Origin: Microbacterium wangchenii
Lineage (GTDB): Bacteria; Actinomycetota; Actinomycetes; Actinomycetales; Microbacteriaceae
NCBI RefSeq assembly: GCF_004564355.1
Contig: NZ_CP038266.1
Location: forward strand, 2,294,001 to 2,358,000
Direction of reading: 5' to 3'
Length of the DNA: 64,000 bases
The notes beneath the pieces are model-generated. The model made no database searches. It saw only the letters and a list, made by a program, of their open reading frames with translations, and was not told where the DNA came from. The first letter of the stretch is position 1; every line of letters begins with the position of its first letter. This document shows, one piece after another, positions 13,627 through 31,065 of the stretch. The position numbers were made by a program, and so were the translations under genes.

Positions 13627-14178
13627 TCAGCCGGAGACGGGCACCAGCTCGACCTCGAGATCGAAGAGCAGGTGGGCCGGCACCGACGCGGCAGCCGCAC
13701 GGGCCAGGCGGGCGCGGTCCGCTTCCTCGAGCGGCACCGTGCTGGCCACCACGATCCGCACCCGCTGCTCTGGCGCGGCAGGATCCGGCACCGTTCCGAT
13801 CCACACCCCGCCCCCGTCGGTGACGGTCACCTCAGCGGCCGGTCCGGCCGCGAGGGACACGGCATGCCGGATACCGGTGGCGGTGCCCCGAAGCCGGTGC
13901 AGCGTCGCAGCCTCGGCGATGAAGCGCCGCCGCTGCTCCAGCGGCCAGTTCTGGTCGAGCTCGACGTCGACCCATCCCGCCAGCCATTCCAGGAAGTCCG
14001 CCGGGGCGGAGAAGGGGTCGATATACGCCGGCAGGCTGTCCAGCACCGCGTACACCGGCGCCACCGTCGCGTCGAAGGCCGGCAGGAAGCGCTGCAGGAA
14101 GTCGTCGTCCTGCAGGATCCCGGGCAGCCGGTCGAGAAGGGGCGCCGGTGTGCCGAGGCCGGGGATGACACCGCGCAT
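13627..14178 (-). CDS. Short phage tail protein I-like baseplate protein
   Basis: 183 residues resembling the phage tail protein domain related to P2 gpI: LLDRLPGILQDDDFLQRFLPAFD at the start, WLAGWVDVELDQNWPLEQRR and LHRLRGTATGIRHAV in the middle. In Afp/PVC systems this slot (Afp12) is filled by a far longer protein, so only a core wedge domain is present here. Last gene of the structural set on the minus strand, one base after the stop of the baseplate J gene. It faces the BTAD regulator gene tail to tail with 11 bases between. Confidence 0.75.
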   Translation of the reverse strand: MRGVIPGLGTPAPLLDRLPGILQDDDFLQRFLPAFDATVAPVYAVLDSLPAYIDPFSAPADFLEWLAGWVDVELDQNWPLEQRRRFIAEAATLHRLRGTATGIRHAVSLAAGPAAEVTVTDGGGVWIGTVPDPAAPEQRVRIVVASTVPLEEADRARLARAAAASVPAHLLFDLEVELVPVSG

Positions 14179-14179
14179 G

Positions 14180-16132
14180 TCACACCCCGGCGGTCACGCG
14201 GACCCGGTGTTCATACGAGAACGGGACCGACTCGGCGCCCCATTCCAGCCGCTGCGTCGGCTCGCCACGGGTCCCCTTGTCCGGATCAGCGGGGAACAGC
14301 AGCACCTCGTCGACGAGTTCGGTTCCGGTCAGGTTGTGCAGCACCGCGTGGAGTTCGCCGGCCGACAGCGGCCGGCCGAAGGGCCAGCCCGTGCCGTCGG
14401 CGCCGCCGGTGAGCGGATCGAGATAGCGGTACAGCGCCTGCAGCGCTGCCGTCCGCAGGCTCGCGACGGCCACCCGAGGACGGGCGGCGAGACTCGCCAC
14501 GACCGTCACTCCGCGGTAGTCCGGTGTGCGGAGCAGGACTCGGGCACCGGCGGAGCGGCGTGGCTCCAGCTCGTCGCGGATCTGGGTCAGCAGCTCGGCG
14601 GACGGCTGCAGATCGGCCAGCTCCCGCCGGCCGTCCTCGCCGATGGCCACCCGAGGGACCACGAGCACGCGCACCTCGCCGGAGGCGCCGCTCTCGGACG
14701 CGGGGATGCAGTGCACCCGCGCGACGCCCGGCGTCGACCGTCGCACGAGCTGCTCGTAGTCCTCCGGAGTCACGGCGCGGTCGCGGGTGCGCAGGATCAA
14801 CGGCCCGCGGACCTTCGCCTCCTCGACGGTCTCGCCGTCGGCTCCCCCCGTCGCAGCAGCGCGGTTCTCGCAGCGGCCCACGAACGGGATGCCGCTGCGG
14901 ACGACCACGAGGGATCCGGCCGAGAGGTTCCCGACGAGGCCGCCGCCGATGCGATAGCGCCGCACCACCAGCGGCGCACCCTTGGGCGGGACGGCCCCGA
15001 AGGCCCGCAGGCTGCCGTCGGGCTCGCGGACGGCGGGCGGGAAGCGCACGGTTCCGCTGCTGCGATCGACGGTGATGCGCCGCTCGCCGGCATCGAGCCC
15101 GGCGAATGTGTCGGTCTCACGCCAGGACTCCCACCCCGCGCCGGCGCCCACCTCGACGATGAACTCCGTGCCGTCCGCGACGACCGGGTGAGCCGCCAGC
15201 GGGAACTGCTGACCGGGCACCCCCTCGGACAGTCCGAGGACCTCGTCGGCCACGGTGGTGGCGTGCACGGCGGGGGCGACCGCGCCCACCGCGTCTGCCG
15301 ACGCAGACCGCACCACGGGTGATGCGCTGTACGTCGGCGCTCCCGAATCGGCCTCGATCAGGCGGCACCGCAGCCATCCGGCCCGCACTCCGCCCAGCGT
15401 CGCCGCCGCATGGCTGCGCGGCACCACGAGGAGCACCTCGCCGGCCTGGTTCAAGCCGCCGGTGCCGTCCGAGACCACGTCGCACGCTGTCCAGTCCGAG
15501 CCCGTGTATGCCTCCCAGCGCAGCGTGGGCGCGAGCGGGTCGACGCCGACGCCGCGCACGGCGCAGTCGAGGGTCAGCCGCACCGCCATCGCCCCGGCCG
15601 CGTCGTTCAGCCCGAACAGCAGCCCGTCGCCGACGGCGGGATTCGGAGAGAATGCGTCCAGCCGGCCGTCGCCCAACCGCGACGCCGACCGCACCGCGGG
15701 CTCCGCGTCAGCCGGCTGCGAGCCGATATGGGTGAGGCGGCGGGGCCGGACGCTGGTCGCGTCGGTCGTCGTGAACACGACTGCCGGCCGGTCCTCCGTC
15801 CGTCGCGTGGCCGCCTCGGTACCACCGGGGATCGTGACGTCGTGCGGTCGCGGCGCGGTGAGCCAGAAGACGATGTCGGTCGTGGCCGCGGCGGGAGGAT
15901 GCGGCGACACTCCCAGCAGGTTCAGGAACTCGACGTACAGGCGGTCCGGCACCCGGTTGAGGCGGTAGAGGAGCTCATCGACCATCTGTGCGAACGCCTC
16001 GAGCAGCGTCACTCCGGGATCGGACACGTTGTGGTCGGTCCACTCCGGGCAGGAGACGGCGATGAAGCGCTTGGCATCGTCCACGAGGTCCTGGAAGCGG
16101 CGATCATCCAGACGCGGTGCGGGAAGGGTCAT
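14180..16132 (-). CDS. Baseplate J-like protein (Afp11 type)
   Basis: 650 residues. The N-terminal segment (DDAKRFIAVSCPEWTDHN, FAQMVDELLYRLNRVPDRLY) matches putative baseplate assembly proteins of contractile systems. The middle is a beta-rich insertion, and the baseplate J core near 430-560 contains RDRAVTPEDYEQLVRR. The C-terminus holds LSAGELHAVLHNLTGTELVDE. Baseplate J proteins form the wedge ring around the spike and trigger sheath contraction. The start overlaps the stop of the gp25 gene by four bases, so translation is coupled. Length is in the range seen for Afp11 relatives. Confidence 0.85.
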   Translation of the reverse strand: MTLPAPRLDDRRFQDLVDDAKRFIAVSCPEWTDHNVSDPGVTLLEAFAQMVDELLYRLNRVPDRLYVEFLNLLGVSPHPPAAATTDIVFWLTAPRPHDVTIPGGTEAATRRTEDRPAVVFTTTDATSVRPRRLTHIGSQPADAEPAVRSASRLGDGRLDAFSPNPAVGDGLLFGLNDAAGAMAVRLTLDCAVRGVGVDPLAPTLRWEAYTGSDWTACDVVSDGTGGLNQAGEVLLVVPRSHAAATLGGVRAGWLRCRLIEADSGAPTYSASPVVRSASADAVGAVAPAVHATTVADEVLGLSEGVPGQQFPLAAHPVVADGTEFIVEVGAGAGWESWRETDTFAGLDAGERRITVDRSSGTVRFPPAVREPDGSLRAFGAVPPKGAPLVVRRYRIGGGLVGNLSAGSLVVVRSGIPFVGRCENRAAATGGADGETVEEAKVRGPLILRTRDRAVTPEDYEQLVRRSTPGVARVHCIPASESGASGEVRVLVVPRVAIGEDGRRELADLQPSAELLTQIRDELEPRRSAGARVLLRTPDYRGVTVVASLAARPRVAVASLRTAALQALYRYLDPLTGGADGTGWPFGRPLSAGELHAVLHNLTGTELVDEVLLFPADPDKGTRGEPTQRLEWGAESVPFSYEHRVRVTAGV

Positions 16133-16539
16133 GACGCCGTCCTTTCATGCTGGGGGATGACATAGAACGGGAACACGAGGTTGCGTGGGTCGTTCGTACC
16201 GCGGATCTCATAACGGACGTCGATGAGCAGTACCCCCTCGGTGCTGCGCTCGAGCGAGACCGCCACGCCGACGACGTCGATGCGCGGCTCCCAGAACCCC
16301 AGCGCGTCGCGGACCGCGTTGCCGATGGCGCCGGCCGTCGTCGCATCCGCGGGCGCGAACACATACTCGTGCACAGCGCAGCCGAACTCGGGTCGCATGG
16401 GCCGCTCCCCGGGGGCGGTCGCCAGGATCAGACGGATGCTCTCCTCGATTTTCCGATCGCCCTCTGACAGGGCGATGCGCCCGGTCGGATCGGTGCGTAC
16501 GGGGAACGACCAGCCCCACCCGACGAACTCCTGCGCCAT
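16129..16539 (-). CDS. gp25-like baseplate wedge protein (Afp9 type)
   Basis: 136 residues with the gp25/W family core: IEESIRLILATAPGERPMRPEFG (about 31-53), the EPR loop in GFWEPRIDVV near 81-90 and a closing strand with LLIDVRYEI. gp25-like proteins join the baseplate to the first sheath ring. ATG 16539 is chosen because GGGAG stands 5 bases upstream; an in-frame ATG lies 15 bases earlier. Between the spike gene and baseplate J, the standard order in eCIS clusters. Confidence 0.88.
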   Translation of the reverse strand: MAQEFVGWGWSFPVRTDPTGRIALSEGDRKIEESIRLILATAPGERPMRPEFGCAVHEYVFAPADATTAGAIGNAVRDALGFWEPRIDVVGVAVSLERSTEGVLLIDVRYEIRGTNDPRNLVFPFYVIPQHERTAS

Positions 16540-16553
16540 GACCGCTCCCGCCA

Positions 16554-18371
16554 TCAATTGATTAGGACGGTCGCGCCGCGCACGGTGGTCACGCCGTCGG
16601 AGGTCACCGTGGTGGCACCGGCGCCGGCGAGCGTCAGCTGCGCGCCGGTGATGTCGGCGGACGCCGTCGCCGCAACCTCCAGGGTGGCACCCTTCACAGA
16701 CAGCGCACCGGTGGCCTCGATCGCCACCGACGCCCCACGGATGGACACGGCGCCGGACGAGGTCGAGACCGCGACATCCTGTTTCGCGGTGATGGTGATG
16801 GGGCCTTCCGCGAGCAGCGCGATGCCCCGCTCGGCGGTCTGGGTCAGCGTCAGCTTCTGCGTGCCGTCGGATGTGGACAGCTCGACGCGCTCGTCGCCCG
16901 GCGCTTCCACGAACTCCAGGCGCATGCCCGTCCGCGAGGTGAACGACCGCCGCTCGATGCGGCCGCCCGACGCCACGTGCGTGTTCCACCCGCCGTGGGG
17001 CAGGTCGTGGCCGTTGTACAGGTTGCCGAGCACCACCGGACGGTCGAAGCGACCCGAGTCGAAGGCGACGAGCACCTCGTCCCCCACCTCCGGCAGCAGT
17101 GCCCATCCTCGTCCGTCGCCGGCGCCCGGCTGCACCGTCCGGGCCCATCCGCTCACGTAGTCGTCGGATCGGGTGGGGAACGAGAGCCGCACCCGCCCGC
17201 GCTGCTCCGGGTCGGCGGTGTCGGTCACCACGGCCTGCAGCACTCCGGGCAGGGGCGCATCGGCGGGCGCGGGCGATGCGGACACCAATCCGAACAGCGA
17301 GCGGTCGGAGGCGTTGCTGACGACGACCGTGGTGGTGTAGCCGAGCCGGGAATCGAAGTCGTGCACAGACTCGGTCGCCGTGTAGCGCCCGTCGAACGGC
17401 GCGCCGAACCCGGTCAGCGCGATCGCGGTGCCGCATCGGATGACCGGGTTCCCGAGGATGTGCGCCTCGACCTCGGCGAACCCGCCCGCGATGCGGTCGG
17501 CGAGGGCAGCCGCCAGCAGGTCCTGGTCTGCGGGGGTGCCGCTTCCGTTTCCGCTGAGGTACGGCGAGCCGCCGAAGCCGTCGGCAAGCCGCGCCGGGTC
17601 GGCGTCGGGCAGTTCCGCGCTCCGCGTGCGGGCTGCCGCGGTGGACACGACGGCTGCCTTGGACTCGGCATCCCACCCGCGGACTTGCACTTCGGGCACC
17701 TGCTCCGCGCTGGTCACCGTGGCGCGCAGGTAGAGGGTGTTGACGCCGTACTGCAGCACGACCGGATCGTCGCGGGCGCCCTCGGCGCCGTCGGGGGCGT
17801 CGCCCGCGTCCGGGGGTGGACCGAAGTCGAGCTTCCCCTCCCTGACGTCGAACACGCAGCCTGCTGCATCCGCCAGCCGCCGCAGGAAGACCCAGTCGCT
17901 CACGCCGTCCTGCGCGACATGTTCCAGCACGGCGGTCGGCGCCGAGATCGTCCCGGGCGACAGGCCCGCGCGGCGGACGACGATCGCAACGATGTCGGCC
18001 ACGGTGGTGTCGAGATAGGCGGCGACGTGGCGGTTGCGCAGCAACCGGTGCGACCGATCCGCACCGCGGACGCGGGTGCGCAGCGATCCGCCGATGTCCT
18101 CGCGTTCGAGGGCCGTGACCTCGGCGGTCAGCAGCGGCTCCGGCGGTTGAGGACCGTTCGCCGAGGCGATCAGCCGCACGACCGAACCGATGCGCAGCGA
18201 CGCCTTCTGCAGCAGGGTGCCGTCGCTGTCGACGAAGTCGAGCTCGAATGCGTCCGGGAGACCCGAGGCGTCGGTGATGCGCCCCCGCTCCAGGAGCCCC
18301 GCGAGCTCGGCAGGGAGCGGCGTTCCGTCGACCTCGACGGTCAGCAGGCTCGTGTAGGCCTCAGTGTGCAC
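16554..18371 (-). CDS. VgrG/gp27-gp5-like central spike protein (Afp8 type)
   Basis: 605 residues starting at a GTG that overlaps the end of the LysM gene. The N-terminal half is gp27-like, with VSDWVFLRRLADAAGCVFD, the hub-ring signature also found in phage gpD. Residues 373-455 form the gp5 OB domain (GVLQAVVTDTADPEQRGRVR, GWALLPEVGDEVLVAF, RPVVLGNLYNG). From about 470 to the end comes a repetitive, alternating hydrophobic stretch expected to form the triple beta-helix needle. The needle would be tipped by the PAAR protein encoded at 30748. No C-terminal effector domain follows the needle, so this is not an evolved VgrG. Confidence 0.88.
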   Translation of the reverse strand: MHTEAYTSLLTVEVDGTPLPAELAGLLERGRITDASGLPDAFELDFVDSDGTLLQKASLRIGSVVRLIASANGPQPPEPLLTAEVTALEREDIGGSLRTRVRGADRSHRLLRNRHVAAYLDTTVADIVAIVVRRAGLSPGTISAPTAVLEHVAQDGVSDWVFLRRLADAAGCVFDVREGKLDFGPPPDAGDAPDGAEGARDDPVVLQYGVNTLYLRATVTSAEQVPEVQVRGWDAESKAAVVSTAAARTRSAELPDADPARLADGFGGSPYLSGNGSGTPADQDLLAAALADRIAGGFAEVEAHILGNPVIRCGTAIALTGFGAPFDGRYTATESVHDFDSRLGYTTTVVVSNASDRSLFGLVSASPAPADAPLPGVLQAVVTDTADPEQRGRVRLSFPTRSDDYVSGWARTVQPGAGDGRGWALLPEVGDEVLVAFDSGRFDRPVVLGNLYNGHDLPHGGWNTHVASGGRIERRSFTSRTGMRLEFVEAPGDERVELSTSDGTQKLTLTQTAERGIALLAEGPITITAKQDVAVSTSSGAVSIRGASVAIEATGALSVKGATLEVAATASADITGAQLTLAGAGATTVTSDGVTTVRGATVLIN

Positions 18372-19119
18372 GGAGCACCTCGCGCAGGGTTCTGCCGCGC
18401 GTCGCCGCGCGGGCCATCTCGGTCGCCGACGGCAGGAGCAGGACGGTGCCGGGGCGCAGCCGAAGCGGATCGTCGATGCCGTTGGCCTCGGCGACCTCTC
18501 GCCACAGCTCGGCGTTGCCGTACTCGCGGTAGGCCAGGAGCGGCAGCGAATCGCCCTCGCGCACGACATGTGAGCGGCGGGGGGCGATCCCGCCGGACGT
18601 CGGGTTCTGCTTGCGCTTGGGGTTGGCGAACTCCTCGAGCGCGACCGTGCAGACAGCGCGGAGGGGCCGACCGTCCGGGGAGAACAGCGTGTACCGGGCC
18701 GAGACCGACGTCACGTAGCCGACGAAGCCGCTGAGCGTCCCCCACATGAAGCGCACCCACGGGGCGGAGGGCTTGCCACCGGTCTTGGATCGCGCCGTGG
18801 GCAGGCACGTCTCGAACAGACGCTCCACGCTCTTCACCACGAACTCGTCCTGCGCTTTGCTGGCGTCCAGGTACATCTCGACCGTCAGCTTCTGCGCATC
18901 CGGCCCCAGGTACGTCACCGGGCCGGCTGCGCCCGAGTTGTTCTGATTCTTCTTCTCCCACTTCGCCGTCTTGGCCATCGTGAGCTCGCGGGGGTTGAAC
19001 TGGAAGTCGATGGCGAACTTGAACGGCCCGAGCTTGCCCGGCTCGGGGCCCGGTTCGTGCACGTCGATCCGCGCGTGCTCGAGCTTGGAGGTGTCGGAGG
19101 ACGTCGAAGTCAGCGGCAT
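18361..19119 (-). CDS. LysM-domain tube-baseplate connector (Afp7 type)
   Basis: 252 residues. The N-terminal part carries FKFAIDFQFNPRELTMAKTA and WVRFMWGTLSGFVGYVTSVS, the tube-initiator type fold seen in gp53/gp54-like eCIS proteins. The C-terminal LysM runs from HVVREGDSLPLLAYREYG to LRLRPGTVLLLPS (about 183-232). In Afp/PVC particles this protein sits between the hub and the first inner-tube ring; its LysM need not bind peptidoglycan. Nine bases separate it from the upstream tube gene, and its end overlaps the start of the spike gene. Confidence 0.87.
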   Translation of the reverse strand: MPLTSTSSDTSKLEHARIDVHEPGPEPGKLGPFKFAIDFQFNPRELTMAKTAKWEKKNQNNSGAAGPVTYLGPDAQKLTVEMYLDASKAQDEFVVKSVERLFETCLPTARSKTGGKPSAPWVRFMWGTLSGFVGYVTSVSARYTLFSPDGRPLRAVCTVALEEFANPKRKQNPTSGGIAPRRSHVVREGDSLPLLAYREYGNAELWREVAEANGIDDPLRLRPGTVLLLPSATEMARAATRGRTLREVLRAH

Positions 19120-19128: not shown

Positions 19129-19569
19129 CTAGTACTTCGAATTCGTGTCGGTGAAGCCGTGATGCGCGATCTCCAGCGTCTCGGTGACGACCTTGGGCTG
19201 ATCGGGGGCGAACGAGGGTCCCGTCCACCGGACGGGCACGACGTCAACGAGGGACCAGGCGGCGATGGCGTCGCCGGACGCCGTCATCGCGCGGATGGTG
19301 CCGGCGCTGCGCGTGAAGCCGGTCGTGACGCTCAGCAGCCACTGCAGTACCTTCTCGGACTCGGGTCCGAGCGGCCGGCTCAGCTTGACGTTGGGGTACT
19401 TCAGGCGGGTCGGGAACTGCCAGACGAAGCTGTTGTTGCCGCCCTCTTCCCGCGACTCCAGCACCACCTCGACGCCCAGACCCTCGCACCCGGTGAAGGC
19501 GCCGAGCTCGGCGTCGTCCAGTTCCACGACGTAGCGGACGCTGACCGCCGTCTCCACATCGAGGGCCAT
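19129..19569 (-). CDS. Inner tube protein 2 (Afp5-like)
   Basis: 146 residues of the T4 gp19-like tube family. Typical segments are FTGCEGLGVEVVLESREEGG, the loop TRLKYPNVKLSRPLGPESEK and the C-terminal strand VVTETLEIAHHGF. It differs clearly from tube 1 at 22083, and its place just before the LysM gene is that of Afp5, the special ring next to the baseplate. The gene follows the Pro-rich protein by four bases, consistent with one operon. Confidence 0.87.
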   Translation of the reverse strand: MALDVETAVSVRYVVELDDAELGAFTGCEGLGVEVVLESREEGGNNSFVWQFPTRLKYPNVKLSRPLGPESEKVLQWLLSVTTGFTRSAGTIRAMTASGDAIAAWSLVDVVPVRWTGPSFAPDQPKVVTETLEIAHHGFTDTNSKY

Positions 19570-19573
19570 CTCG

Positions 19574-21496
19574 TCACACTCCGTCGATTCGGACGCCGCG
19601 GCGCTCGCGGTCGGTCAGCAGTTCAGCCCGCAACCGACGCACCATCGCGGGGTACAGCGCAGCGGCGAGCGCGTCGACCTCCTCCGGACGCGTCGGCACG
19701 GCCGCCGGCGCGGCCGGTGCGGGCACCGCGCCCGCCATGACGGACGCTGCGAGTCCGGGGTTCGGAGCCGGGGCGGCCTCCGGGGCGGGCGCCGACGCGG
19801 CATCGGCCTCACCCTCGCGAAGTTGCTGCACGCTCGGGTGCCACCCGGCTCCCGAGAACGCCTCGCTGGTGGACGGGACCCGGGGATCGCCGACGCGAGC
19901 GGAGCGGGTCGCGAGCCGCTGCACGAGCGCCGTCGCGTGGGTCGGAGCGCCCACGGGGATCGGGTCCGGCGGCTGCGGCGCGGTGGCCGGGCGCGCGGGC
20001 ACCAGGGCGGCGCGCTGAATGTGGAGCGCGGCGGCCCCCGGGGCTTCGGGCGGCTGCTCCGGAGGGAGGGGCGCAACGAGAACCGGGGGGCGGAATCCCA
20101 CAGCGGCGGACCCCGGCGCAGTGCTCTCGGGCCCGCGCGTCGAGAGCTGCACCGCTGGTCGAACGACTGCCGGTGCCCGAACCCGGGGCGCTCGCCCCAC
20201 CGCCGTCGCGCCCGACCGGGGCAGCGATTCGGTCCTGACGGTGCGCTGCAGGACGGAAGGGGCGGGGGACGCCTGCAGCAAAGGCTGCACGTCCGCCTGG
20301 CTCGTCGCCGGCGTGACATCGACCTCGATCGCCTCGGCCGGTGTCGCGCTGCCCGCGGCGGAGACGTCCGCCGCCCCTTCCCACCGACTCGCGGGCGTCG
20401 CCTCCGCCACGGCAGGGGAACCCGATCGCGATGGGTCGCCGTCCGCGTGCCGGCTTGCGACCGGCGCGGCCGGAAGGGGTTCGGCGGGGAGGCCGACGGA
20501 ATCGGTGGTGGACGCGCGCGGATCCCGTGTTGCCGGCACGTCCGCGGAGCGGCCGACGACAGTGCGCCGCTGGATGAGCAGAGGCTCCAGGGCGTCTGCG
20601 GTGGGCGGGGCGGCCGATGGTGAGGTGTCCGGCGTCGCGGTGATCGACGGCGGCGGTCCCCCGTCCTGCACGCCTCGCGGACGCGTCGAGGGGAATCTGC
20701 CGGCCGCGGTCGGGATCCTCGCCACCACACGCGGCTCGGGTCCGCGGGACGCACCCGAGCGGGATACGGCGGGAAGATCGTGGCCGGAGACGGCCCTCGG
20801 CGGGATGGACCCCGCAGGCGGGAGCAGCTCTGCATCGCGGGTCGTCGGCGACGGGCGTGACGCGGTACCGCCATCGGCTGCGGCACCGCCATCAGCTGCG
20901 GCATCGTCCTCAGCATCGACCTCGACGCCCGCGTCGCCAGCGGCATCGACCGCGAGCCGGCGGGACACGACAGGGGCGGGCCCAGCCCTCCCCGCCGACG
21001 CGCGAGGCTGCTGCCCCGGGGAGGAATCGGCGGCGGGCACCTGCGTCACCGTCGTCGCTTGCGGAGGGGAGGACGGCTCCGCGCTGCCCTCCCCGGCGTC
21101 GGAGACGGCGTCGAGACCGGGCTCGGAGGACGCGGCCTCGCGCTGGGCGACGGCAGGCACCGGTTTCCGAGCGGGCCCGCTCGTGTCCCCCGCGGTGCGG
21201 CGGAGAGCGAGATCCGAGAAACCGGAGGAAGCGGCTGGGCTCCCGGCGACGGGGTCCAGGTCGATGGTGCCCCCCGGCGCATCGCCGGTGCCGTGCACCG
21301 CCGTGCCGCCCAGAAAGGACGGATCGGTCCTGAGCGGCAGCGACGGCAGGAAGTCGGCGGCGAGCACGCCGGGCGAGCCATCCGCGATCGTGGTCTGCAC
21401 CGGCGGGAAGAACGCCCATCCGGCCGGCTCCGGCGGGGCTCCGGCGGGAACGGCGGGCGCGGCCGTGCGCGCCGTGCGCTGCCACGGCCAGCGCAC
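19574..21496 (-). CDS. Pro/Ala-rich QR-motif eCIS protein, candidate tape measure
   Basis: 640 residues, largely Pro/Ala/Ser/Val and predicted disordered. Hydrophobic-QR motifs recur at 118, 309, 417, 494 and 526 (AVAQRE, LLIQRR, VLQRTV, LHIQRA, LVQRLA). The only ordered part is a C-terminal helix with LAAALYPAMVRRLRAELL followed by TDRERRG (about 610-633); I recall similar ends on eCIS proteins often annotated as extensin. It starts at a GTG, with GAGGGG 10 bases upstream. It lies between DUF6760-like and tube 2 genes. No other tape-measure candidate exists in the cluster, so a length-setting or scaffold role inside the tube is a reasonable but untested guess. Confidence 0.6.
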   Translation of the reverse strand: MRWPWQRTARTAAPAVPAGAPPEPAGWAFFPPVQTTIADGSPGVLAADFLPSLPLRTDPSFLGGTAVHGTGDAPGGTIDLDPVAGSPAASSGFSDLALRRTAGDTSGPARKPVPAVAQREAASSEPGLDAVSDAGEGSAEPSSPPQATTVTQVPAADSSPGQQPRASAGRAGPAPVVSRRLAVDAAGDAGVEVDAEDDAAADGGAAADGGTASRPSPTTRDAELLPPAGSIPPRAVSGHDLPAVSRSGASRGPEPRVVARIPTAAGRFPSTRPRGVQDGGPPPSITATPDTSPSAAPPTADALEPLLIQRRTVVGRSADVPATRDPRASTTDSVGLPAEPLPAAPVASRHADGDPSRSGSPAVAEATPASRWEGAADVSAAGSATPAEAIEVDVTPATSQADVQPLLQASPAPSVLQRTVRTESLPRSGATAVGRAPRVRAPAVVRPAVQLSTRGPESTAPGSAAVGFRPPVLVAPLPPEQPPEAPGAAALHIQRAALVPARPATAPQPPDPIPVGAPTHATALVQRLATRSARVGDPRVPSTSEAFSGAGWHPSVQQLREGEADAASAPAPEAAPAPNPGLAASVMAGAVPAPAAPAAVPTRPEEVDALAAALYPAMVRRLRAELLTDRERRGVRIDGV

Positions 21497-21499: not shown

Positions 21500-21658
21500 T
21501 CAGTCCCCCTCGCTCATACGCCGGTTGATCTTCGCGATCTCGGCGACGTAACGCTGCCGCTGGGGGTGCTCGAGGTCGAGGATGTCGTTCAAGGACCAGT
21601 GGAAGTGGTAGGCGACGTACGCGACCTCCTCGTGGATACGGCCGGCCGCGTACGTCAT
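21500..21658 (-). CDS. DUF6760-like small eCIS protein
   Basis: 52 residues: starts MTYAAGRIHEEVAYVAYHFH, then WSLNDILDLEHPQRQRYV and a basic end INRRMSEGD. This pattern is what I know as DUF6760, found beside tube and chaperone genes in eCIS and related tail clusters; it resembles the short tail-assembly chaperone parts of phages. ATG 21658 overlaps the stop of the preceding gene (ATGA); an in-frame start upstream to 21709 would duplicate coding sequence of that gene and is rejected. Confidence 0.75.
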   Translation of the reverse strand: MTYAAGRIHEEVAYVAYHFHWSLNDILDLEHPQRQRYVAEIAKINRRMSEGD

Positions 21659-24235: not shown

Positions 24236-26149
24236 TCAGCGCGTCCCGGGCGCAAAGTTCACGCCCTGGTCATTGAGCTGATGGCGGACGACAAACCCCT
24301 CGACGACGTCTGCGGGCCAAATGGAACCCTGCTTGCGCAAGGCCTCGAGATACTGCTGATTCTGGGGCGCGTCGGTCAGGACGAGGTTTCGCCCTGACTT
24401 CGCCAGCCACGGGTTATCGGATAGCCGGATCTTGTGCTCGAGGTTGAACGGCTCGAACGCTTCCGAGCCGTCGGCCCTGACCACCTTGATGCGCAACGTG
24501 CCCCGAGGACCAGCCTGCGCGTCGCCCGCGGCGACAAGCTGGTTCTCGATCGCCCTAAGTTGGGGATCCGCCCGCAACTGCGGCATGACCTTTTTCTGAA
24601 GGTTGCTGTAGTCCTTTCCAGCGAGGTCGCGAGCTTCGCGGATGATGTCGTTGCCTCGCGTCCGTTGATTGGGTGTCAGGGTCGGCGCGTCACCCACCTC
24701 CGTCCGCAGATCGTCGAACTGTTTCGAGAGCTCGGCCAACCTGGCACGGCCAGGTGTGCTGCGTTCGCGAGCGATCGTCCGGGTGACGACGTCGGGGAGG
24801 CGCTTGTTCGCGGTCGCCTCATACCGTGCGACGAGTTCTGGGTTGGCCACCCGGACGTTTCGAGTCTGAGGCGTGTGGGTCTCCGGCGCCGCGGGGGCTC
24901 CGGCCTTGCCTGCGACCGCGTGACCGATGAGTCCGGCGATGCCACCAACGATCAGGTTCACCACGACATTCCGCAGGAGTTGTTCCATCGTCGCTTGTCC
25001 ACGTAGGACGCGCACGCCGTCGGTAATCGCCCCTTGCACCATGCCGCCCGCGGAACCTGAGACCACAGAGCCGACCGCCTTCACGAGTGTCTCCTCCGCG
25101 ACGTCGGTGAACAAGCCGTTAGCGACAAGAGATTTCGACAGAGCCGGAGCGAGGTAGGGTCCGAGCTTCGCGGCAACCGCGCCGCCGACTGCACCGGCCC
25201 CTGCGCCCACCACGGTGTCAATCGCGACGTTCTTAGCGTCTTTCCAGCCGACTTCATCACCGGTCACGACCTTGCCACCGACCGCAGCAGCACTCGACAG
25301 GAGGGCCGTCCCGCCGCCCATGATCGCGCTACTGGAGACGAGACCCAAGCCGAGCCCGCCGGCCGCGACGGGCGCAGCAAGAACCGCGCCGCCGGCAATC
25401 GCGAAGATCATGAAGCACACCGTTGAGGTGAGCTCCAAAGCGAGCACGGTGGTCTCCGCCGTGCCGATCTGGCGAGCGCGGTAATCAACGATGGCGGTGT
25501 GCGCGGCCTCGACTCTTTCCTGCGCCATTCGCGTGGCAGTCTCGGTCGCGGCGAGATCGTCCCCAGGCAGGGCGGCTCGCACGGCGGCCAGCGCGTTCTC
25601 GCCCGCGGCGATGAGCGGCTCTACCTCATCGAGGTTGATTCCCGTCCGCGCTGCCTCAAGGAACCATGCCACGATCCGCTGATCGGAGTTCAGTTTCTTC
25701 ATGTCGGCGTAGAGGCCGGAAGCTGTTGACATCCGGGATTCCATCGGGCGCAGCACGCGCAGTCGGAACGTCCCTTTCAGGCCGGTCAAGAACGGCTTCC
25801 ACTGGCTCTCCACAATCGCGTACTGCTGACCCTGATAAGTCAAGACATGTAACTTCTCTTCGCAAACCGCGGTCTCCGGCGGCGCAGCGGGACTGGCGTT
25901 GCGATCCTCGTCTACGGTCGGAGCGCATACAGCGGCGGCTGTGGCATCTTCTCGCTGCACCACGGAGCGCATGACTGTCGACATCGCGGCACGGTTTCCG
26001 CCCGACCGCTGCATCGTCAGTAGGGTGGACGGCGTTATCGCGGCCCCGTGCCACCTGCGGCTCAAAGCCGGAGCCGTCGCCCTCCGAACGCCGACTCCCG
26101 GCGTAGACGGTGAGGCGAGTTCCTGGGGCGTAGCGCGTGCTGTCAACAT
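24236..26149 (-). CDS. Candidate eCIS effector (polymorphic-toxin-like, possible HNH nuclease end)
   Basis: 637 residues. The N-terminus holds TMQRSGGNRAAMSTVM (about 45-60), a pattern shared with the DUF4157 protein encoded just upstream. A helical region follows, then a long Gly/Ala-rich, partly hydrophobic stretch (about 235-415, with DTVVGAGAGAVGGAVAAKL), as seen before toxin tips in polymorphic toxins. The last 90 residues contain FNLEHKIRLSDNPWLAKSG and LVLTDAPQNQQYLEALR; EH-N-N spacing suggests an HNH/endonuclease-VII-like fold, but the activity is unproven. GGAGGT lies 9 bases before the ATG. No immunity gene was seen next to it. G+C is lower than in neighbouring genes, suggesting later acquisition. 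Confidence 0.6.
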   Translation of the reverse strand: MLTARATPQELASPSTPGVGVRRATAPALSRRWHGAAITPSTLLTMQRSGGNRAAMSTVMRSVVQREDATAAAVCAPTVDEDRNASPAAPPETAVCEEKLHVLTYQGQQYAIVESQWKPFLTGLKGTFRLRVLRPMESRMSTASGLYADMKKLNSDQRIVAWFLEAARTGINLDEVEPLIAAGENALAAVRAALPGDDLAATETATRMAQERVEAAHTAIVDYRARQIGTAETTVLALELTSTVCFMIFAIAGGAVLAAPVAAGGLGLGLVSSSAIMGGGTALLSSAAAVGGKVVTGDEVGWKDAKNVAIDTVVGAGAGAVGGAVAAKLGPYLAPALSKSLVANGLFTDVAEETLVKAVGSVVSGSAGGMVQGAITDGVRVLRGQATMEQLLRNVVVNLIVGGIAGLIGHAVAGKAGAPAAPETHTPQTRNVRVANPELVARYEATANKRLPDVVTRTIARERSTPGRARLAELSKQFDDLRTEVGDAPTLTPNQRTRGNDIIREARDLAGKDYSNLQKKVMPQLRADPQLRAIENQLVAAGDAQAGPRGTLRIKVVRADGSEAFEPFNLEHKIRLSDNPWLAKSGRNLVLTDAPQNQQYLEALRKQGSIWPADVVEGFVVRHQLNDQGVNFAPGTR

Positions 26150-26188: not shown

Positions 26189-26884
26189 TCATTGGAGCAG
26201 GGTCTGTACCGGCTCCTCAGCCGAGAGTTCTTCCGGTTCCTCCCCAGGGTCATCCTCACGCTGCGCCACCGGCTCGGCGCAACAAGAATCTCGTTGCACC
26301 TGCGGCTCAGCCACCGCCGGACCGCTCAGAACGCGTGCGGCGTTTTCGACCGCGTCGCGCTCGAAGCGGTCATCAGGGCTGCTCACATTGATTCCGCCCT
26401 CCGCAGGCGTGCCCTCGACGGGTCCTTCACGCTGCTGCATCACGTGCGTCAGCTCGTGGGCCAATGTGGTTCTGCCCTCCGGCGAGCCGGGATCGTAGGC
26501 GTCACGCTGGAAAACGAGGTGTGGGCCCACGGTGTACGCGCGCGCCCCCACGGATCGAGCGGATTCGGACGCGTCAGTGTCCGTATGCACACGTACGTCC
26601 CCGAAGTCCGCGCCCATCCGCGACTCCATGTCGGCCCGGACGGCGCCCTGCAGGGTCTCTCCGCCCGACGAGATTGCGTCGAGCACCGGCGAACGCTCTT
26701 CTTCGATAACGCTGGAGGTGGCGGCGTTTCCCACCTCGCGCTGCAGGCGCAGGACCCCGGCTGCGTCCAGGACCGGGAGGTCTCGACTGCTGCGCCCGAA
26801 AGGCTGGCGCTCGTTCATCCGGGAGTTGCTGGCGACGCGGCGTGCGCTGATCTGCTCCGCAACCAGAAGGTCGACTGTCGGCAC
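26189..26884 (-). CDS. DUF4157 eCIS-associated metallopeptidase-like protein
   Basis: 231 residues. DUF4157 spans about 68-160, with VLDAISSGGETLQGAVRADM, MGADFGDVRVHTD, FQRDAYDPGSPEGR and the zinc motif HELTH at 143-147. Before it stands LRLQREVGNAATSSVI (45-60), matching the effector N-terminus. DUF4157 is one of the domains most strongly linked with eCIS loci, on cargo or on loading proteins. The frame is open to 26983, but GTG 26884 is preceded by AAGGAGG at the ideal distance. The effector starts 39 bases after its stop, so the two probably form an operon and may be loaded together (inference). Confidence 0.82.
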   Translation of the reverse strand: MPTVDLLVAEQISARRVASNSRMNERQPFGRSSRDLPVLDAAGVLRLQREVGNAATSSVIEEERSPVLDAISSGGETLQGAVRADMESRMGADFGDVRVHTDTDASESARSVGARAYTVGPHLVFQRDAYDPGSPEGRTTLAHELTHVMQQREGPVEGTPAEGGINVSSPDDRFERDAVENAARVLSGPAVAEPQVQRDSCCAEPVAQREDDPGEEPEELSAEEPVQTLLQ

Positions 26885-26975
26885 GACTCTCCTCCTTGTA
26901 GCTCCTTTCCGTCTGCTTACGCCACTCGGCGCGCGTTGTCTGCATCGAATGGGCACACGCGCGAGCATCCCACGG

Positions 26976-26989
26976 TGCCCCATCGAGCA
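26976..26989. promoter_or_regulatory. TGCCC-N4-GGGCA palindrome, site 5 (one mismatch)
   Basis: Reads TGCTCGATGGGGCA on the minus strand, about 98 bases before the DUF4157 start, in a 146-base gap without genes. A perfect 10-bp palindrome GCAGGCCTGC (26987-26996) overlaps it and a GGGCA half-site lies at 26951-26955. Confidence 0.45.
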
Positions 26990-27030
26990 GGCCTGCGCCC
27001 AGGATCGAACACCGCCTCATTCCTCCCTAC

Positions 27031-29079
27031 TCACCGCGCGATGAGGGTCCAGTACTTGCCGAACTCGCGTTCGGCGGTGAGACGACCGAGCTTGCGGTAT
27101 TCGCGCTGCACCGCCGTGATGACGTGCTCCATCGTCAGGACGCCCCCCGCGCCGGCCGCGAAATACGCCGCCGTCACGGCGGCTGCCCGGATCGCGCCGC
27201 CAGCCAGTTCGAACGCGCCCCCGAGGAACTGCAGGTCCAGGTCGTCGTCCCGCGGTATCCGCACCCCTAGGCACCGGTCCCACAGAACGGCGCGGTGCGC
27301 GGCATCCGGAAGCGGGAAGTCCACGACGACGTCGAGTCTGCGCGTGAAGGCCTCATCGATGTTCGCGCGGAGGTTGGTCGCGAGCAGCGCCAGGCCGTTG
27401 AAGCTCTCCATCCGCTGCAGCAGGAACGCGCTCTCGACGTTCGCATACCGGTCGTGCGCATCCTTCACCTCGGATCGCTTGCCGAAGATCGCGTCTGCCT
27501 CGTCGAACAAGAGCACCGCGTTCACGTCCGCGGCCGCGGCGAAGATCTTGTCGAGGTTCTTCTCGGTCTCGCCGATGTACTTGTCCACCACCGTCGCCAG
27601 ATCGACGACGAACAGGTCGAGTCCGAGCTCCCCCGCGACGACCTCGGCCGACATGGTCTTGCCCGTTCCGGAATCGCCCGCCAGGAGAGCGACCACGCCA
27701 TGCCCGCGGCCGCCGCCGGGGCGCATGGTCCATTCGCCGAGGACGCGCTCCCGGAAGCGGGCGCGCAGTTCGATCTCGTGCAGCGCGTTGAGCACCGCGG
27801 GGGGCAGGACGAGATCGGTCCAGCGCACCGCCGGCTCAACACGACGGGCCAGGCGGTCCAGAGCGGATCCGTTTCCGGCGCGGGCTCCGGCACCCAGGTG
27901 ATCCGCGGTGACCGTGCCCGTCGGCGTCAGCGCCGCCTGCGTGCGTGCTGCGGCGGCGGCGCGGGCCACCTGCTCCGGCTTGAGCCGGAACTGCTCTGTG
28001 GCTCCCGCCACATCCACGCCGAACGCGGCGGGCCCCAGCGCCCCCTGCCACAGCGCGACCCGTTCGTCGATCGTGCTGGGAGGCACCTGCACGAGTGCCG
28101 GCAGCTGCTGCGTCCACGACGCGTCCCACGCGCCCTCACCGATCAGGATGGTCGGCCGGGACACGGCGTCCACCGCCGCGACGAGAGCCGGCTCGATGCC
28201 ACCGACGACCGGCCCGGCCACGAGACCACATCCGCGCAGCCGGACTTCGCGCACCGCCGCACGCGCGAGCTGCACGGAGTCCGGGGCGCTTCGGAGCTTC
28301 TCGAGGTCCAGAACGAGACTGTCGCTGCCCACCGTCGACAGCGCGCGCACCGCCACGGACGTGCCGGATCCGGTGCTGGAGTCCCGCAGATACACGGAGC
28401 GGATGCCAGCACGCAGCGCCCGCACGATCTGCGCGGGATCACCCCACTCGGCCGCCAGCGGCTCAGCCAGCACGCCCGCCAGCGGCAGGTCGATCGTGTC
28501 GTCGCCGAGCAGGTGTCCGACGACACGATCGGGGACGCGGAGCATGCGCGCCGGCAGGGCTCGATCCGGCTCGTCGAGCGTGAGAAGGCCCCCGGCGAGG
28601 AGCGGGCCATGCAGCAGTCGTCCCCGATCGGCGACCAGGATCAGGGACGCGCCGCACAGCTCCAATGCCAGCCCGACCGTTGGGCGGCGCTGTGTGACGT
28701 CGTCGTTGAGGTACCCGAAGAAGCGCTCGAAACGTGGGTCCACGTCGGCGGCGAGCGCCACCAGAAGGAGTTCCACGTCGAGCGGCGAGAGTGCGAACTC
28801 CCGTGCCAGCTCGCGCAGCCGGGACGGGTGACCGGCCGCTTCGGCCAGATCGGCCTCCCGCTCGCTCGCGAGGAATGCCGCCGACGCATCGGGCTGCAGC
28901 GGCGGGCGGCGCTCGGTGTCCAGCAGGCGATCCACCATCTCGTCGCTGAGGTACAACCCCCGGAAGGGGTCGTCCGGCTGCGGATCGTCCGCGCGCCGCG
29001 CCGCCACGAGCCTTCGGATGCGCTCCTCCACCGCCGCGACGCGGCCCAGGAGATGCGCGGCGCTGGGGTCGCGGCGCAT
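27031..29079 (-). CDS. AAA+ ATPase of the injection system (Afp15 type)
   Basis: 682 residues. The N-terminal 400 residues are helical and include a degenerate AAA-like region. The active AAA+ domain has Walker A GDSGTGKT (468-475), Walker B LLFDEADAIFG (523-533), sensor 1 ATN (567-569) and an RR arginine finger (580-581), followed by the C-terminal lid. Afp15-type ATPases are assembly or cargo-loading factors and are strict companions of eCIS loci. ATG 29079 is one base from the stop of the cap gene; the frame upstream of it overlaps that gene and is not used. Confidence 0.88.
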   Translation of the reverse strand: MRRDPSAAHLLGRVAAVEERIRRLVAARRADDPQPDDPFRGLYLSDEMVDRLLDTERRPPLQPDASAAFLASEREADLAEAAGHPSRLRELAREFALSPLDVELLLVALAADVDPRFERFFGYLNDDVTQRRPTVGLALELCGASLILVADRGRLLHGPLLAGGLLTLDEPDRALPARMLRVPDRVVGHLLGDDTIDLPLAGVLAEPLAAEWGDPAQIVRALRAGIRSVYLRDSSTGSGTSVAVRALSTVGSDSLVLDLEKLRSAPDSVQLARAAVREVRLRGCGLVAGPVVGGIEPALVAAVDAVSRPTILIGEGAWDASWTQQLPALVQVPPSTIDERVALWQGALGPAAFGVDVAGATEQFRLKPEQVARAAAAARTQAALTPTGTVTADHLGAGARAGNGSALDRLARRVEPAVRWTDLVLPPAVLNALHEIELRARFRERVLGEWTMRPGGGRGHGVVALLAGDSGTGKTMSAEVVAGELGLDLFVVDLATVVDKYIGETEKNLDKIFAAAADVNAVLLFDEADAIFGKRSEVKDAHDRYANVESAFLLQRMESFNGLALLATNLRANIDEAFTRRLDVVVDFPLPDAAHRAVLWDRCLGVRIPRDDDLDLQFLGGAFELAGGAIRAAAVTAAYFAAGAGGVLTMEHVITAVQREYRKLGRLTAEREFGKYWTLIAR

Positions 29080-29080
29080 G

Positions 29081-29761
29081 TCAGCGTCGCCCGTCTCGAG
29101 GACGCGGGGCCCGGGGCGTCCGCGGGATGTCGGCAGACCGTGCTGGGTCCGGAGCCGCCGCTCGGAACAGCCGTTCCTCAACCGCGTCCGGCATGTTCTG
29201 GAACGTCGCTCCCACACCCTCGGTCACCGGCGCCCCCGCGGTCCGGGACACACCTGGGAGCACCGGTGCGAGGACCACGAGGTCCAGTGACGGCTTCAGC
29301 TCCCCACCGAGGGAGGACCACACATCGGCGAACGCACGGTCCTCCGGGGGCGGCAGCCCCACCGTGATCTGCACGGGCTGGCCGGTGTCGGCGAGACCAC
29401 CCACGCGGAATTCGTCCGGCAGCGCGTCGAATCGCAGGAAGCATTGCAGGAGCTGATCCAGCAGCCGGTGCTCGTCATCGGGCCGCTGCGTCCATGCGGT
29501 CACGAGGTAGGAAAGCTTGAAATAGCGCGGCGCCGGGGTCCGTCCCACCACGATGCCGCGCGGATCCCGCCGTTCCAGGAACCCGTTCTCACGGCGGCGC
29601 GTGTCCTCCCGGATGTCGTAGAGGTACAGATCCACGGTCGGCGCGTTCCGGCGCGCGGCCCAGTCGGTCGTCGGCGCGTCGAGCACGACGTCCACGTCCG
29701 GGTCGGAGATCGCGTCGGTGCGCACGATCGCCCGGATGGCGTCATCCACCTCCCCGATCAC
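29081..29761 (-). CDS. DUF4255 tail terminator/cap protein (Afp16 type)
   Basis: 226 residues. Begins VIGEVDDAIRAIVRTD and continues with VVLDAPTTDWAARRNAPTVD, LYLYDIREDTRRRENG and APRYFKLSYLVTAWTQRPDD, the conserved core of DUF4255. These proteins cap the distal end of the tube and sheath. Family alignment as I remember it supports the GTG at 29761; earlier in-frame starts at 29833 and 29824 have no better ribosome site. The C-terminal 50 residues are Pro/Arg-rich and variable. Followed by the ATPase gene. Confidence 0.82.
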   Translation of the reverse strand: MIGEVDDAIRAIVRTDAISDPDVDVVLDAPTTDWAARRNAPTVDLYLYDIREDTRRRENGFLERRDPRGIVVGRTPAPRYFKLSYLVTAWTQRPDDEHRLLDQLLQCFLRFDALPDEFRVGGLADTGQPVQITVGLPPPEDRAFADVWSSLGGELKPSLDLVVLAPVLPGVSRTAGAPVTEGVGATFQNMPDAVEERLFRAAAPDPARSADIPRTPRAPRPRDGRR

Positions 29762-29884: not shown

Positions 29885-29898
29885 TGCCCTCTCGGGCA
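29885..29898. promoter_or_regulatory. TGCCC-N4-GGGCA palindrome, site 6
   Basis: Exact copy, TGCCCTCTCGGGCA, between the end of the LuxR-type regulator gene and the cap gene. Extra GGGCA half-sites at 29860-29864 and 29872-29876 make a cluster of half-sites. Likely operator for the cap-ATPase unit. Confidence 0.6.
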
Positions 29899-29914
29899 GC
29901 GCGATGCGCGGTGA

Positions 29915-30541
29915 TCAGATGAGTCCTTCCCGCAGGGCGTAAGCGACCGCGTGCGACCGGTTGCGCAACTGCAACCGCGTCGTCACGTCGTGCAGGATGT
30001 TCTTCACCGTCCGTTCGGAGTACGACAGGCGCAGCGCGATCTGCGCGGTGCCCAGGCCCTCGGCGACCAGGCGAAGGACCTCCACCTCGCGTGCGGACAG
30101 GCCGTTGAAGGCGATCCCGCGCGGATCGAGGACGGTGCGCTGAAGCCTGCCGATCTGCTCGAGGAGGCGGCCCAGCATGTCTGGTGGGACAGCGCCCTCA
30201 CCTGCGGCGGCGGAGCGGATCGCCGATACCAGCCGCTCCGGCGTGGCTTCGACGCGCCGGACGATCCCCACCACGCCCACTTCGATCGCGCGGACCAGAC
30301 CCTGATCATCGAGGCTGGCAGGGATCAAGATGACCTTGGCGTCACCGTTGCGGCGCAGGAAGCGCAGGGTGTTCAGCGACTCCTCGTCCACGGCATCCAC
30401 GAGCACCAGCACCACCTCAGGGTCCTCGTCCTCACGCGGAGAAACGACGCGGACCTCGGGACGGGGACGGAGCTGGCTGGACAGGCCAGCCTCCGAAATA
30501 GGGTCACGGGCGAAGACCCGGACCGCGATACGTGACATCAT
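29915..30541 (-). CDS. LuxR/NarL-type regulator with atypical receiver domain
   Basis: 208 residues. The C-terminal LuxR helix-turn-helix (about 148-208) contains LSAREVEVLRLVAEGLGTAQ and YSERTVKNILHDV. The N-terminal 120 residues have a CheY-like layout but the usual phospho-Asp strand reads VVLVLVDAVDEE, the conserved Thr/Ser strand VILIPAS and the Lys position is Arg (IVRRVEAT), so phosphorylation is doubtful. A GAGGAGG ribosome site precedes the paired ATG. A LuxR-type gene also sits in the Streptomyces injection-system locus. NarL-type dimers bind inverted half-sites, so it is the best candidate for the TGCCC-N4-GGGCA sites. Confidence 0.82.
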   Translation of the reverse strand: MMSRIAVRVFARDPISEAGLSSQLRPRPEVRVVSPREDEDPEVVLVLVDAVDEESLNTLRFLRRNGDAKVILIPASLDDQGLVRAIEVGVVGIVRRVEATPERLVSAIRSAAAGEGAVPPDMLGRLLEQIGRLQRTVLDPRGIAFNGLSAREVEVLRLVAEGLGTAQIALRLSYSERTVKNILHDVTTRLQLRNRSHAVAYALREGLI

Positions 30542-30621
30542 GTCCTCCTCCTCGGGGGTCGGCGAGCTGCCGGGCCCAGCCTGCTCCCCCGCACTCTTCG
30601 TGCACTCAACACCGGCTCAAC

Positions 30622-30638
30622 GGGCACGCTGATTGCCC
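30622..30638. promoter_or_regulatory. Inverted half-site pair GGGCA-N7-TGCCC
   Basis: In the 206-base gap between the divergent regulator and PAAR genes. The half-sites are the same as in the other six sites but in opposite orientation, as also found beside site 2 (GGGCA-N3-TGCCC) and site 6. May serve autoregulation; weaker evidence than the six main sites. TATCGT at 30682-30687 could be a -10 box for the PAAR gene. Confidence 0.3.
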
Positions 30639-30747
30639 CCACCGCCGCACCGGCGATCCGGCCCCTTCCCTTCGGCCGGAGTATCGTCGCCGTACCGGAG
30701 GGCTATGCCCGGCCGGCGTTGCTCCCCCGCGAGAAAGGAGCCGGATC

Positions 30748-31065
30748 GTGCCCACCGGGCCTGCCCTGCGCGTCGGTGACATGGCCGCTTGCCCGCTGTC
30801 GGAGGGCGTCACGGTGCACATCGGCGGTCCCATCACGCCGGCGGCGGGCGTCCCCGCAGTCCTCATCGGCGGCATGCCGGCCGCGGTCGCGGCCGGCACC
30901 CCCGGCGGAATCGTGTGCGCCTCGCCCGCCCCGAACGGGCTGGCGACCGGCAGCGCGACGGTCCTCATCGGCGGGCGTCCGGCGGCGCGACTGGGCGATA
31001 TGTCGATTCACGGGATCCCGGTGGGCCCCGGACCCGGGTGCACGACCGTGATCATCGGCGGCTGA
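30748..31065 (+). CDS. PAAR-repeat spike tip protein (Afp10 type)
   Basis: 105 residues with the repeating PAAR pattern: VTVHIGGPITPAAGVPAVLI, GGMPAAVAAG, SATVLIGGRPAARLGDM and TTVIIGG at the end. PAAR proteins form the sharp cone on the spike. Starts at GTG 30748, with AGAAAGGAG 8 bases before it. It is the only structural gene on the plus strand and stands apart, beyond the regulator, 12 kb from the spike gene it should partner. No extension is fused to the tip, so it carries no toxin itself. Confidence 0.87.
   Translation: MPTGPALRVGDMAACPLSEGVTVHIGGPITPAAGVPAVLIGGMPAAVAAGTPGGIVCASPAPNGLATGSATVLIGGRPAARLGDMSIHGIPVGPGPGCTTVIIGG

Follow-up and report, generated by a model that had tools for sequence, protein, structure and literature searches.

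How does a contractile injection system (CIS) come to a defined length if no tape measure gene is recognised among its genes? We take up this question for a locus of Microbacterium wangchenii, whose genome is one contig of 3.83 Mb (NZ_CP038266.1). The DNA analysed, called the window throughout, is a stretch of 64,000 nucleotides of this contig (positions 2,294,001 to 2,358,000), and the CIS locus lies at 13627-31065 of the window. According to the papers on Streptomyces coelicolor (PMC10066040, PMC12237407) and S. lividans (PMC10286715), the CIS clusters of these species lack a tape measure gene, whereas the particles of S. coelicolor are described as uniform, with 268 nm and 61 sheath layers (PMC10066040, PMC12237407); the measurements in the earlier of the two S. 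coelicolor papers also include a non-contractile mutant of ∼230 nm in vitro. Set against this reported absence, a conserved protein of the Microbacterium locus that we call T lies where a tape measure would be expected and is a candidate for this role, which makes the question testable. We consider it probable that the locus encodes a type IId system with cytoplasmic assembly, loading by an AAA+ protein, a membrane adaptor, and T as a component of the tube bore. The function of T is inferred from its position, its motif, its co-occurrence with the sheath and a rough scaling.

Genes were read as open reading frames (ORFs) with codon-position GC (guanine and cytosine) content, and their products were identified by Pfam and NCBIfam profile searches (Table 1); all cluster genes are open frames. 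The region from the LuxR-type regulator (30541) through gpI (13627) forms one unit on the - strand, in the order regulator, cap, AAA+ ATPase, DUF4157 protein, 637-amino-acid (aa) cargo, sheath, tube, 142-aa protein, DUF6760, T (640 aa), second tube protein (tube2), LysM hub, VgrG, gp25, J and gpI. The PAAR gene (30748-31065) is divergent, and a BTAD regulator and a protein with zinc ribbon, Ig-like region and four transmembrane segments (TM), named ZnIgTM (9203-11329), sit past gpI and convergent to it.

The sheath alignment was scanned against the genomes of 84,980 species and the best 80 of 228 relatives were retained, many of these 80 loci being cut by contig ends. DUF6760 and tube2 were both in reach in 58 of 85 loci (57 distinct, since L062 duplicates G365; L and G numbers are our handles for loci and genomes). 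The other 27 have no readable interval, as 26 are cut by the contig and L084 is of full length with no tube2 match. One usable long ORF rich in Pro and Ala was present between DUF6760 and tube2 in 54 of the 57 distinct loci; apart from L062, which is the same contig as G365, those left out are L101, which contains runs of N, L113, where the frame has a different end, and L134, which offers no long frame, while L133 was kept despite 34 undetermined residues. Among the 54 encoded T proteins, that of the window is the shortest with 640 aa and the longest has 1506 aa; shorter ones occur in class genomes outside this set, for example that of G764 with 621 aa. Their mean disorder propensity is 0.26 versus 0.08-0.14 for seven other cluster proteins. 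The last 47 residues could be aligned across the 19 members tried.

The bodies of these proteins share a short motif, [LIVMF]QR, here phiQR. It was observed 739 times in the 54 T proteins, compared to 18.8 ± 4.3 after shuffling and 18.4 expected from composition, whereas the reversed [LIVMF]RQ was found 3 times with 19 expected by shuffling. The enrichment is 40x in T and 11x in DUF4157 proteins, but 0.2x in the sheath, 0.1x in the tube, 0.5x in VgrG and 1.2x in J, and cap, spike, hub and gp25 all lie within 0.1-1.2x; mildly raised values were obtained for the AAA+ protein (3.8x), gpI (3.9x), ZnIgTM (3.7x) and LuxR (2.7x). Since tandem repeats and relatedness inflate such totals, the count per protein is the safer statement: each of the 54 has at least three phiQR, the window T has 4 versus 0.29 expected, and outside the set 9 were counted in G764 and 13 in G930.

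T also occurs where a close sheath occurs. In the genus Microbacterium, 27 of 366 genomes have a sheath match, which is close (69-75% identity) in just four besides the window, and a T C-terminal profile built from 19 of the 54 matches exactly these five genomes. In a draw of 296 genomes from the class, T was detected in 28 and a sheath with at least 54% identity in 28, with 26 common to both, while none of the 24 other sheath-positive genomes has T; the cut-off of 54% was set with the gap from 48% to 54% already in view, and G942, whose match at 60% is partial, was left out of the close group. T is nearly always single per genome, with two matches in 3 of the 28. G982 gave a weak T match only, and G1022 stops at a contig end. 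In G884 (L179) T is present with no sheath match in the genome; a 20-kb stretch there holds baseplate genes and tube2, sheath, tube1 and DUF6760 were not found in it, and partial deletion or rearrangement is a candidate reading of this cluster.

Related proteins appear to extend beyond this clade. In a sister clade (sheath identity 45-48%) DUF6760 lies 38-76 bp from tube2, and an Ala/Pro-rich protein of 914-1389 aa is encoded between tube2 and hub in all 8 loci in which the interval is complete, the ninth (G806) being cut by a contig end. Its motifs differ: phiRR (81 versus 16.6), phiWR (11 versus 1.8) and phiER (21 versus 3.9) are enriched, phiQR is not (3 versus 2.0). On plasmids of Deinococcus a counterpart follows tube2, with a longest ORF of 1506-1973 aa in four of five loci and at most 2 phiQR each; DUF4157 is annotated in 3 of the 5, and a HExTH-type motif was seen by eye in the other two. 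The fifth, in D. grandis (L198:17675-21454), is one ORF of 1259 aa with a tube domain at its start and the T C-terminal helix at its end, for which fusion, deletion and assembly error are candidate readings. Profile comparison of the C-termini gave a probability of 91% (E 9e-7) for the sister clade and 80% (1.5e-5) for the Deinococcus form, both against T, and 86% (5e-6) between these two, while the one negative control reached 0.1%. The three C-termini are likely to be homologous, though not certainly so, since these regions are short amphipathic helices.

How could such a protein act in the tube? In phage P2 the genes are ordered sheath, tube, E, E', T (the tape measure), U and D. The place of our protein matches the tape measure slot of the series E-E'-T-U-D, between a chaperone pair and the hub, with the identity of the pair resting on sub-threshold matches, in the window those to P2 GpE and, for the hub, GpU (Table 1). 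A neighbour of DUF6760 in Pseudanabaena similarly has a match to Phage_TAC_7 ('E, or 41 or 14') which, with 5.6e-5, falls narrowly short of the cut-off. We propose that T takes the place of the missing tape measure as a bore component, that its C-terminal helix would anchor near the tube initiator or hub, and that its disordered body with phiQR would span the bore and set or support the tube length. Going further, type IId systems may have a true tape measure in T, a disordered Pro/Ala-rich ruler that would act through repeated short linear docking motifs, usually phiQR (phiRR in the sister clade), and not as a coiled coil, though we put this forward only tentatively. In the same tentative version, T would share its motifs with DUF4157 proteins and cargo, be anchored by its C-terminal helix and span ∼0.2 nm per residue, and would have been overlooked because no profile matches it. 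In the literature searched, mostly main texts outside subscription journals, neither T nor the phiQR motif is described.

The length scale was noticed after the fact, and S. coelicolor and D. aquatilis are represented in it by the T of relatives. T has 1300-1354 aa in L106 and L122, two loci of species that we take to be near S. coelicolor, which gives 0.17-0.21 nm per residue with the S. coelicolor lengths for these proxies. With the T of 1506-1973 aa of mesophilic Deinococcus as proxies, the D. aquatilis particles, given as 365 ± 39 nm in the length data of PMC12998442, yield 0.19-0.24 nm per residue. D. grandis, which makes sheaths according to the same report (PMC12998442), does not simply fit. 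On this scale, particles of ∼110-135 nm are predicted for the window.

Known tape measures resemble T in part. Like Afp14/Pvc14 and P2 gpT, T has a length-variable body with a conserved end, whereas it is Pro/Ala-rich and has no detectable similarity to tape measure families; the window T matched nothing in Pfam, NCBIfam or PHROGs, tape measure families included. Tme of S. davawensis is likewise a largely disordered, DUF4157-linked particle protein related to tape measures, but it ends in a nuclease, while the window T has no DUF4157 and no toxin-like end and carries phiQR (PMC11126660).

A number of observations weigh against T as a bore component that measures length. It is proline-rich, unlike the helical tape measures of phages, and in the window carries just 4 phiQR. 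The T proteins of G992 (1628 aa) and G848 (1176 aa), both of the same clade, have 1 phiQR each, so the motif is not universal; a T-like gene of G788 with under ∼240 aa and no phiQR would be odd for a ruler. No single intact T frame was present in L113 or L134, a tube2 is missing nearby in L084, and in Haloferax DUF6760 and tube2 are 25 bp apart with no T in between. The proteins in chaperone position of the window, of L083 (Streptomyces) and of Haloferax match no chaperone family. T length did not correlate significantly with the length of the cargo slot (rho 0.48, p 0.06, 16 loci). Finally, T could equally be a cargo or loading adaptor.

As such an adaptor, T would be a multivalent phiQR chain recruiting DUF4157 and effector proteins with the same motif, and this chain would be recognised by the AAA+ ATPase or the tube; we regard this as a serious possibility, which falls short of being the expected one. 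It would account for the enrichment of phiQR in DUF4157 proteins, where the motif is frequent in Haloferax, Pseudanabaena, Deinococcus and Rhizobium, and for a DUF4157 domain inside T itself in G848 (tblastn 2e-6, in frame) and, by annotation, in the three Deinococcus loci. Pvc15, too, loads effectors via disordered N-terminal signals (PMC11495950). An adaptor would, however, not call for the nearly always single copy of T per genome, its conserved C-terminal helix or its constant location, with the hub on one side and the chaperone-position pair on the other; no toxin-like end was seen in the T proteins inspected by eye, and phiQR is missing from the DUF4157 proteins of Parabacteroides and Caballeronia. 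On a Pseudanabaena plasmid (L150:5426-11302) two DUF4157 proteins with IQR motifs are encoded beside DUF6760 and the Phage_TAC_7-like gene.

In the reading that we prefer, with T in the bore, the motif would still suggest a route of cargo recognition in a large class of bacterial injection machines. The AAA+ protein would help to load cargo bearing N-terminal phiQR/GN motifs, and the DUF4157 protein would connect the 637-aa cargo to the tube initiator. The N-terminus of this cargo has a Q...GN.A-type motif (by eye) as in the cargos of relatives. A small DUF4157 gene adjoins the cargo gene just upstream of the sheath, the arrangement described for the Sle1/Sle2 pair of S. lividans (PMC13277306), which also has unrelated cargo ends and in which the cargo has a coiled-coil N-terminus and tape measure homology. 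The window cargo has no relatives and no detected tape measure homology; its sole PHROGs match is to phrog_342. In a family draw of 398 genomes none of the 397 others had a relative of it, nor did one turn up in plasmids, in viral contigs or, by tblastn, in the loci of four close relatives. In these four (G365, G343, G210, G257) the slot between DUF4157 and sheath holds proteins of 1101-1138 aa which are 56-89% identical to each other. That of G257 is similar to the others up to about residue 930 only and has an exchanged end with a weak match under the cut-off to CDI_toxin_EC869_like (3.5e-4); that of G365 matches the tape measure family phrog_167 (6e-4), and those of G210 and G257 do not. 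With phmmer the first 110 residues of the window cargo gave weak matches (best 0.0015) in - strand frames of Streptomyces loci, and two weak matches of its C-terminus (best 3e-4) in the fetched loci lie in frames antisense to the J gene and were dismissed as spurious. The C-terminus looks HNH-like by eye (EH...N...N), which has no Pfam support and is hence not claimed. The cargo gene (24236-26149) has a third-position GC of 0.76, below its neighbours, and the stretch at 22-26 kb has 65-66% GC compared to 68-75% in adjacent cluster blocks; because of these lower values, recent acquisition of the cargo is suggested.

A reading of the same DNA made without database searches (the sequence-only reading) had seen a complete-looking actinobacterial CIS without fibre and without phage head, lysis or integration genes, which might act inside the producing cell or be released without receptor targeting, as described for Streptomyces. 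Profile searches bear out sheath, tubes, spike, baseplate, cap, AAA+ and DUF4157 proteins at the places it gave, on the - strand with PAAR on the + strand, and the products match families of extracellular contractile injection systems (eCIS), the candidate effector of 637 aa being alone among the named parts without a Pfam or NCBIfam family at E 0.1. Its named parts hold, whereas its list was incomplete, as T, DUF6760, the 142-aa gene, LuxR, BTAD and ZnIgTM had been overlooked. One cluster holds the core set of sheath, tube, initiator, hub, spike, gp25, J, gpI, AAA+ and Pvc16-type cap, together with a DUF4157 protein, and no conventional (Afp13-type) fibre was found among the families searched. 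The nearest sheath relatives are actinobacterial and have the same order; among the best 80 of 228 they include Agromyces, Pseudarthrobacter, Cellulomonas and many Streptomyces, and the order is common wherever the stretch is long enough. Because it shares this order with Streptomyces systems and its sheath is 56-60% identical to theirs, placement as a Streptomyces-class type IId eCIS is supported, with the class label taken from the papers, and the Streptomyces-like reading gains from it. The Microbacterium system belongs to an already known kind which is rare in the genus (5 of 366 genomes); the remaining sheath matches in the genus come from contractile systems of other kinds, and AAA+ and DUF4157 genes are present in some of these. 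It shares with the S. coelicolor CIS and the S. lividans SLP the core genes, their order, the lack of a fibre and, in most complete loci, a LuxR-type regulator at the cap end. It differs in its orphan cargo, in a membrane protein with four TM versus one in CisA, in a far shorter T (640 aa versus 1070-1506 aa in 36 Streptomyces-type loci) and in its PAAR gene, which S. coelicolor lacks (PMC10066040).

The S. coelicolor type IId particles are reported to be cytoplasmic and to work inside the producer cell (PMC10066040, PMC12237407). By analogy, the Microbacterium particles would assemble in the cytoplasm, and a membrane protein with a CisA-like N-terminal ribbon would, for firing, link the baseplate to the membrane of the producing cell itself. 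ZnIgTM is the candidate. It is encoded on the opposite strand past the baseplate end, separated from it by one gene, and has counterparts with 39-40% identity in G365, G343 and L070. At the CisA position of the Streptomyces-type G884 a protein with N-terminal zinc ribbon, long low-complexity linker, second ribbon and one TM is encoded, which was taken as CisA by place and architecture. The ribbon signature C-x2-C-G-x(8)-FC-x2-C-x2-[YV]L-x-W[DE] was found in 8 of the 15 loci searched, with a single occurrence in each and with the five Microbacterium loci among them, a count that carries no chance estimate and in which several of the other seven loci stop before the CisA position. In Agromyces L061 and in G210 and G257 the signature comes after gpI and on its strand, and in the window ZnIgTM it precedes the Ig-like region and four TM. 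By whole-protein alignment CisA has no match in the window, and the best alignment to the G884 protein comprises the ribbon only (E 0.27). The CisA N-terminus is predicted to bind CIS components and, in the passage that describes it, is called largely unstructured with zinc unmentioned (PMC12237407). ZnIgTM resembles CisA as a membrane protein at the baseplate end and in the ribbon signature common to it and the G884 protein, but it is on the opposite strand and one gene further, and has an Ig-like region and four TM instead of a single TM and the conserved C-terminal domain (compared to CisA as presented in PMC12237407). ZnIgTM may stand in for CisA and dock to the baseplate. The shared ribbon fits an intracellular, membrane-coupled action, and we infer by analogy the same mode for the Microbacterium particle.

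By tblastn (E 2e-6 to 8e-4), the Ig-like region of ZnIgTM resembles proteins encoded in loci of Cellulomonas and Streptomyces, several of them just upstream of the sheath and with a hydrophobic segment after the Ig-like part; these relatives are possibly of the Sco4256-4258 type. Next to the cluster (window 7481-8533) lies a shorter paralogue of ZnIgTM, which has a zinc ribbon, four TM and a single Ig-like region and shares 37% identity with it over 242 residues.

Could the particle instead be released and seek a target through an unrecognised receptor-binding protein such as ZnIgTM or PAAR? Classical eCIS do leave the producer, an Ig-like domain may serve in ligand binding and fibre sequences are diverse, but the four C-terminal TM (hydropathy) and N-terminal zinc ribbon of ZnIgTM speak for a membrane protein, and the nearest studied relatives are cytoplasmic (PMC10066040, PMC12237407). 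The three fibre or collar families searched (collar, S74 peptidase, Phage_fiber_2) had no match in the genome with positive controls, although fibres of another type could escape such a search. We consider release for targeting unlikely.

That the locus is a degraded or conventional prophage tail or an R-type tailocin is highly improbable and was rejected, since, although 7 of 10 scanned cluster proteins have PHROGs relatives (the second tube protein, DUF4157 protein and cap do not), the eCIS markers cap, AAA+, eCIS_core and VgrG-related protein are present, none of the cluster genes has a broken frame, a PHROGs scan that covered 29 of the 35 ORFs outside 9203-31065 gave no match to head, tail, lysis or integration families (some matched families of unknown function), and Phage_portal (PF04860) and TerL_ATPase (PF03354) had no match in the whole genome with positive controls. 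As judged from its genes, the locus is an actinobacterial eCIS rather than what is left of a prophage, and the head genes that might have adjoined it were not found in these flank and genome searches.

Table 1. Features of the Microbacterium wangchenii locus (window coordinates, profile matches with E values)
Position	Strand	Feature	Match
9203..11329	+	ZnIgTM, candidate membrane adaptor: zinc ribbon at the N-terminus, Ig-like region (by eye), four TM at the C-terminus (hydropathy)	Pfam Zn_Ribbon_1 6e-5, Cep192_D3 0.0045, both under cut-off
11378..13615	+	BTAD/SARP-type regulator with NTPase-like region	PF03704 5e-10
13627..14178	-	gpI-like baseplate protein	TIGR02242 1e-28
14180..16132	-	Baseplate J (Cis11-like)	TIGR02243 3e-134
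16129..16554	-	gp25-like (Cis9)	PF04965 1e-26
16554..18371	-	VgrG-like spike (Cis8)	NF033848 (VgrG-related) 2e-176
18361..19119	-	LysM/CIS_tube hub (Cis7)	PF19266 1e-23; LysM 4e-4 and P2 GpU 0.001 under cut-off
19129..19569	-	Second tube protein / tube initiator (Cis1b, tube2)	PF06841 3e-28
19574..21496	-	Protein T: 640 aa, Pro/Ala-rich low-complexity, phiQR motifs, conserved C-terminal helix; candidate tape measure/bore scaffold	
21500..21658	-	DUF6760, position like P2 gpE'	PF20546 7e-15; Phage_P2_GpE 0.067 under cut-off
21655..22083	-	142-aa protein in tail-assembly-chaperone position	No family match (Pfam, NCBIfam, PHROGs)
22083..22526	-	Inner tube (Cis1a)	PF06841 3e-27
22551..24113	-	Sheath (Cis2)	PF04984 4e-25, PF17482 4e-16
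24236..26149	-	Candidate cargo (orphan) of 637 aa with MQRxxGNxA motif at the N-terminus and a hydrophobic middle	phrog_342 internal virion protein 1e-4
26189..26983	-	eCIS_core (DUF4157) protein with HELTH, Sle2-like; longest ORF, true start perhaps internal	PF13699 2.5e-32
27031..29079	-	AAA+ ATPase (Cis15-like)	PF00004 1.5e-23, WHD 4e-25
29081..29761	-	Cap/terminator (Cis16-like), Pvc16_N (DUF4255)	PF14065 1.5e-38
29915..30541	-	LuxR/NarL-type regulator	PF00196 1e-13
30748..31065	+	PAAR spike tip	PF05488 5e-13

As for the two regulators at the ends of the cluster, GerE and BTAD are named among the eCIS shell domains in the domain survey of PMC8213781. The Microbacterium genomes G210 and G257 (L037, L039) have ∼4 kb between the LuxR and cap genes, and their PAAR gene is at the baseplate end instead. 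In three others (G140, G327 and G265; L007-L009, L029) two different long sheath genes stand in tandem, which marks a different system, and G140 has a third long sheath gene elsewhere in its genome.

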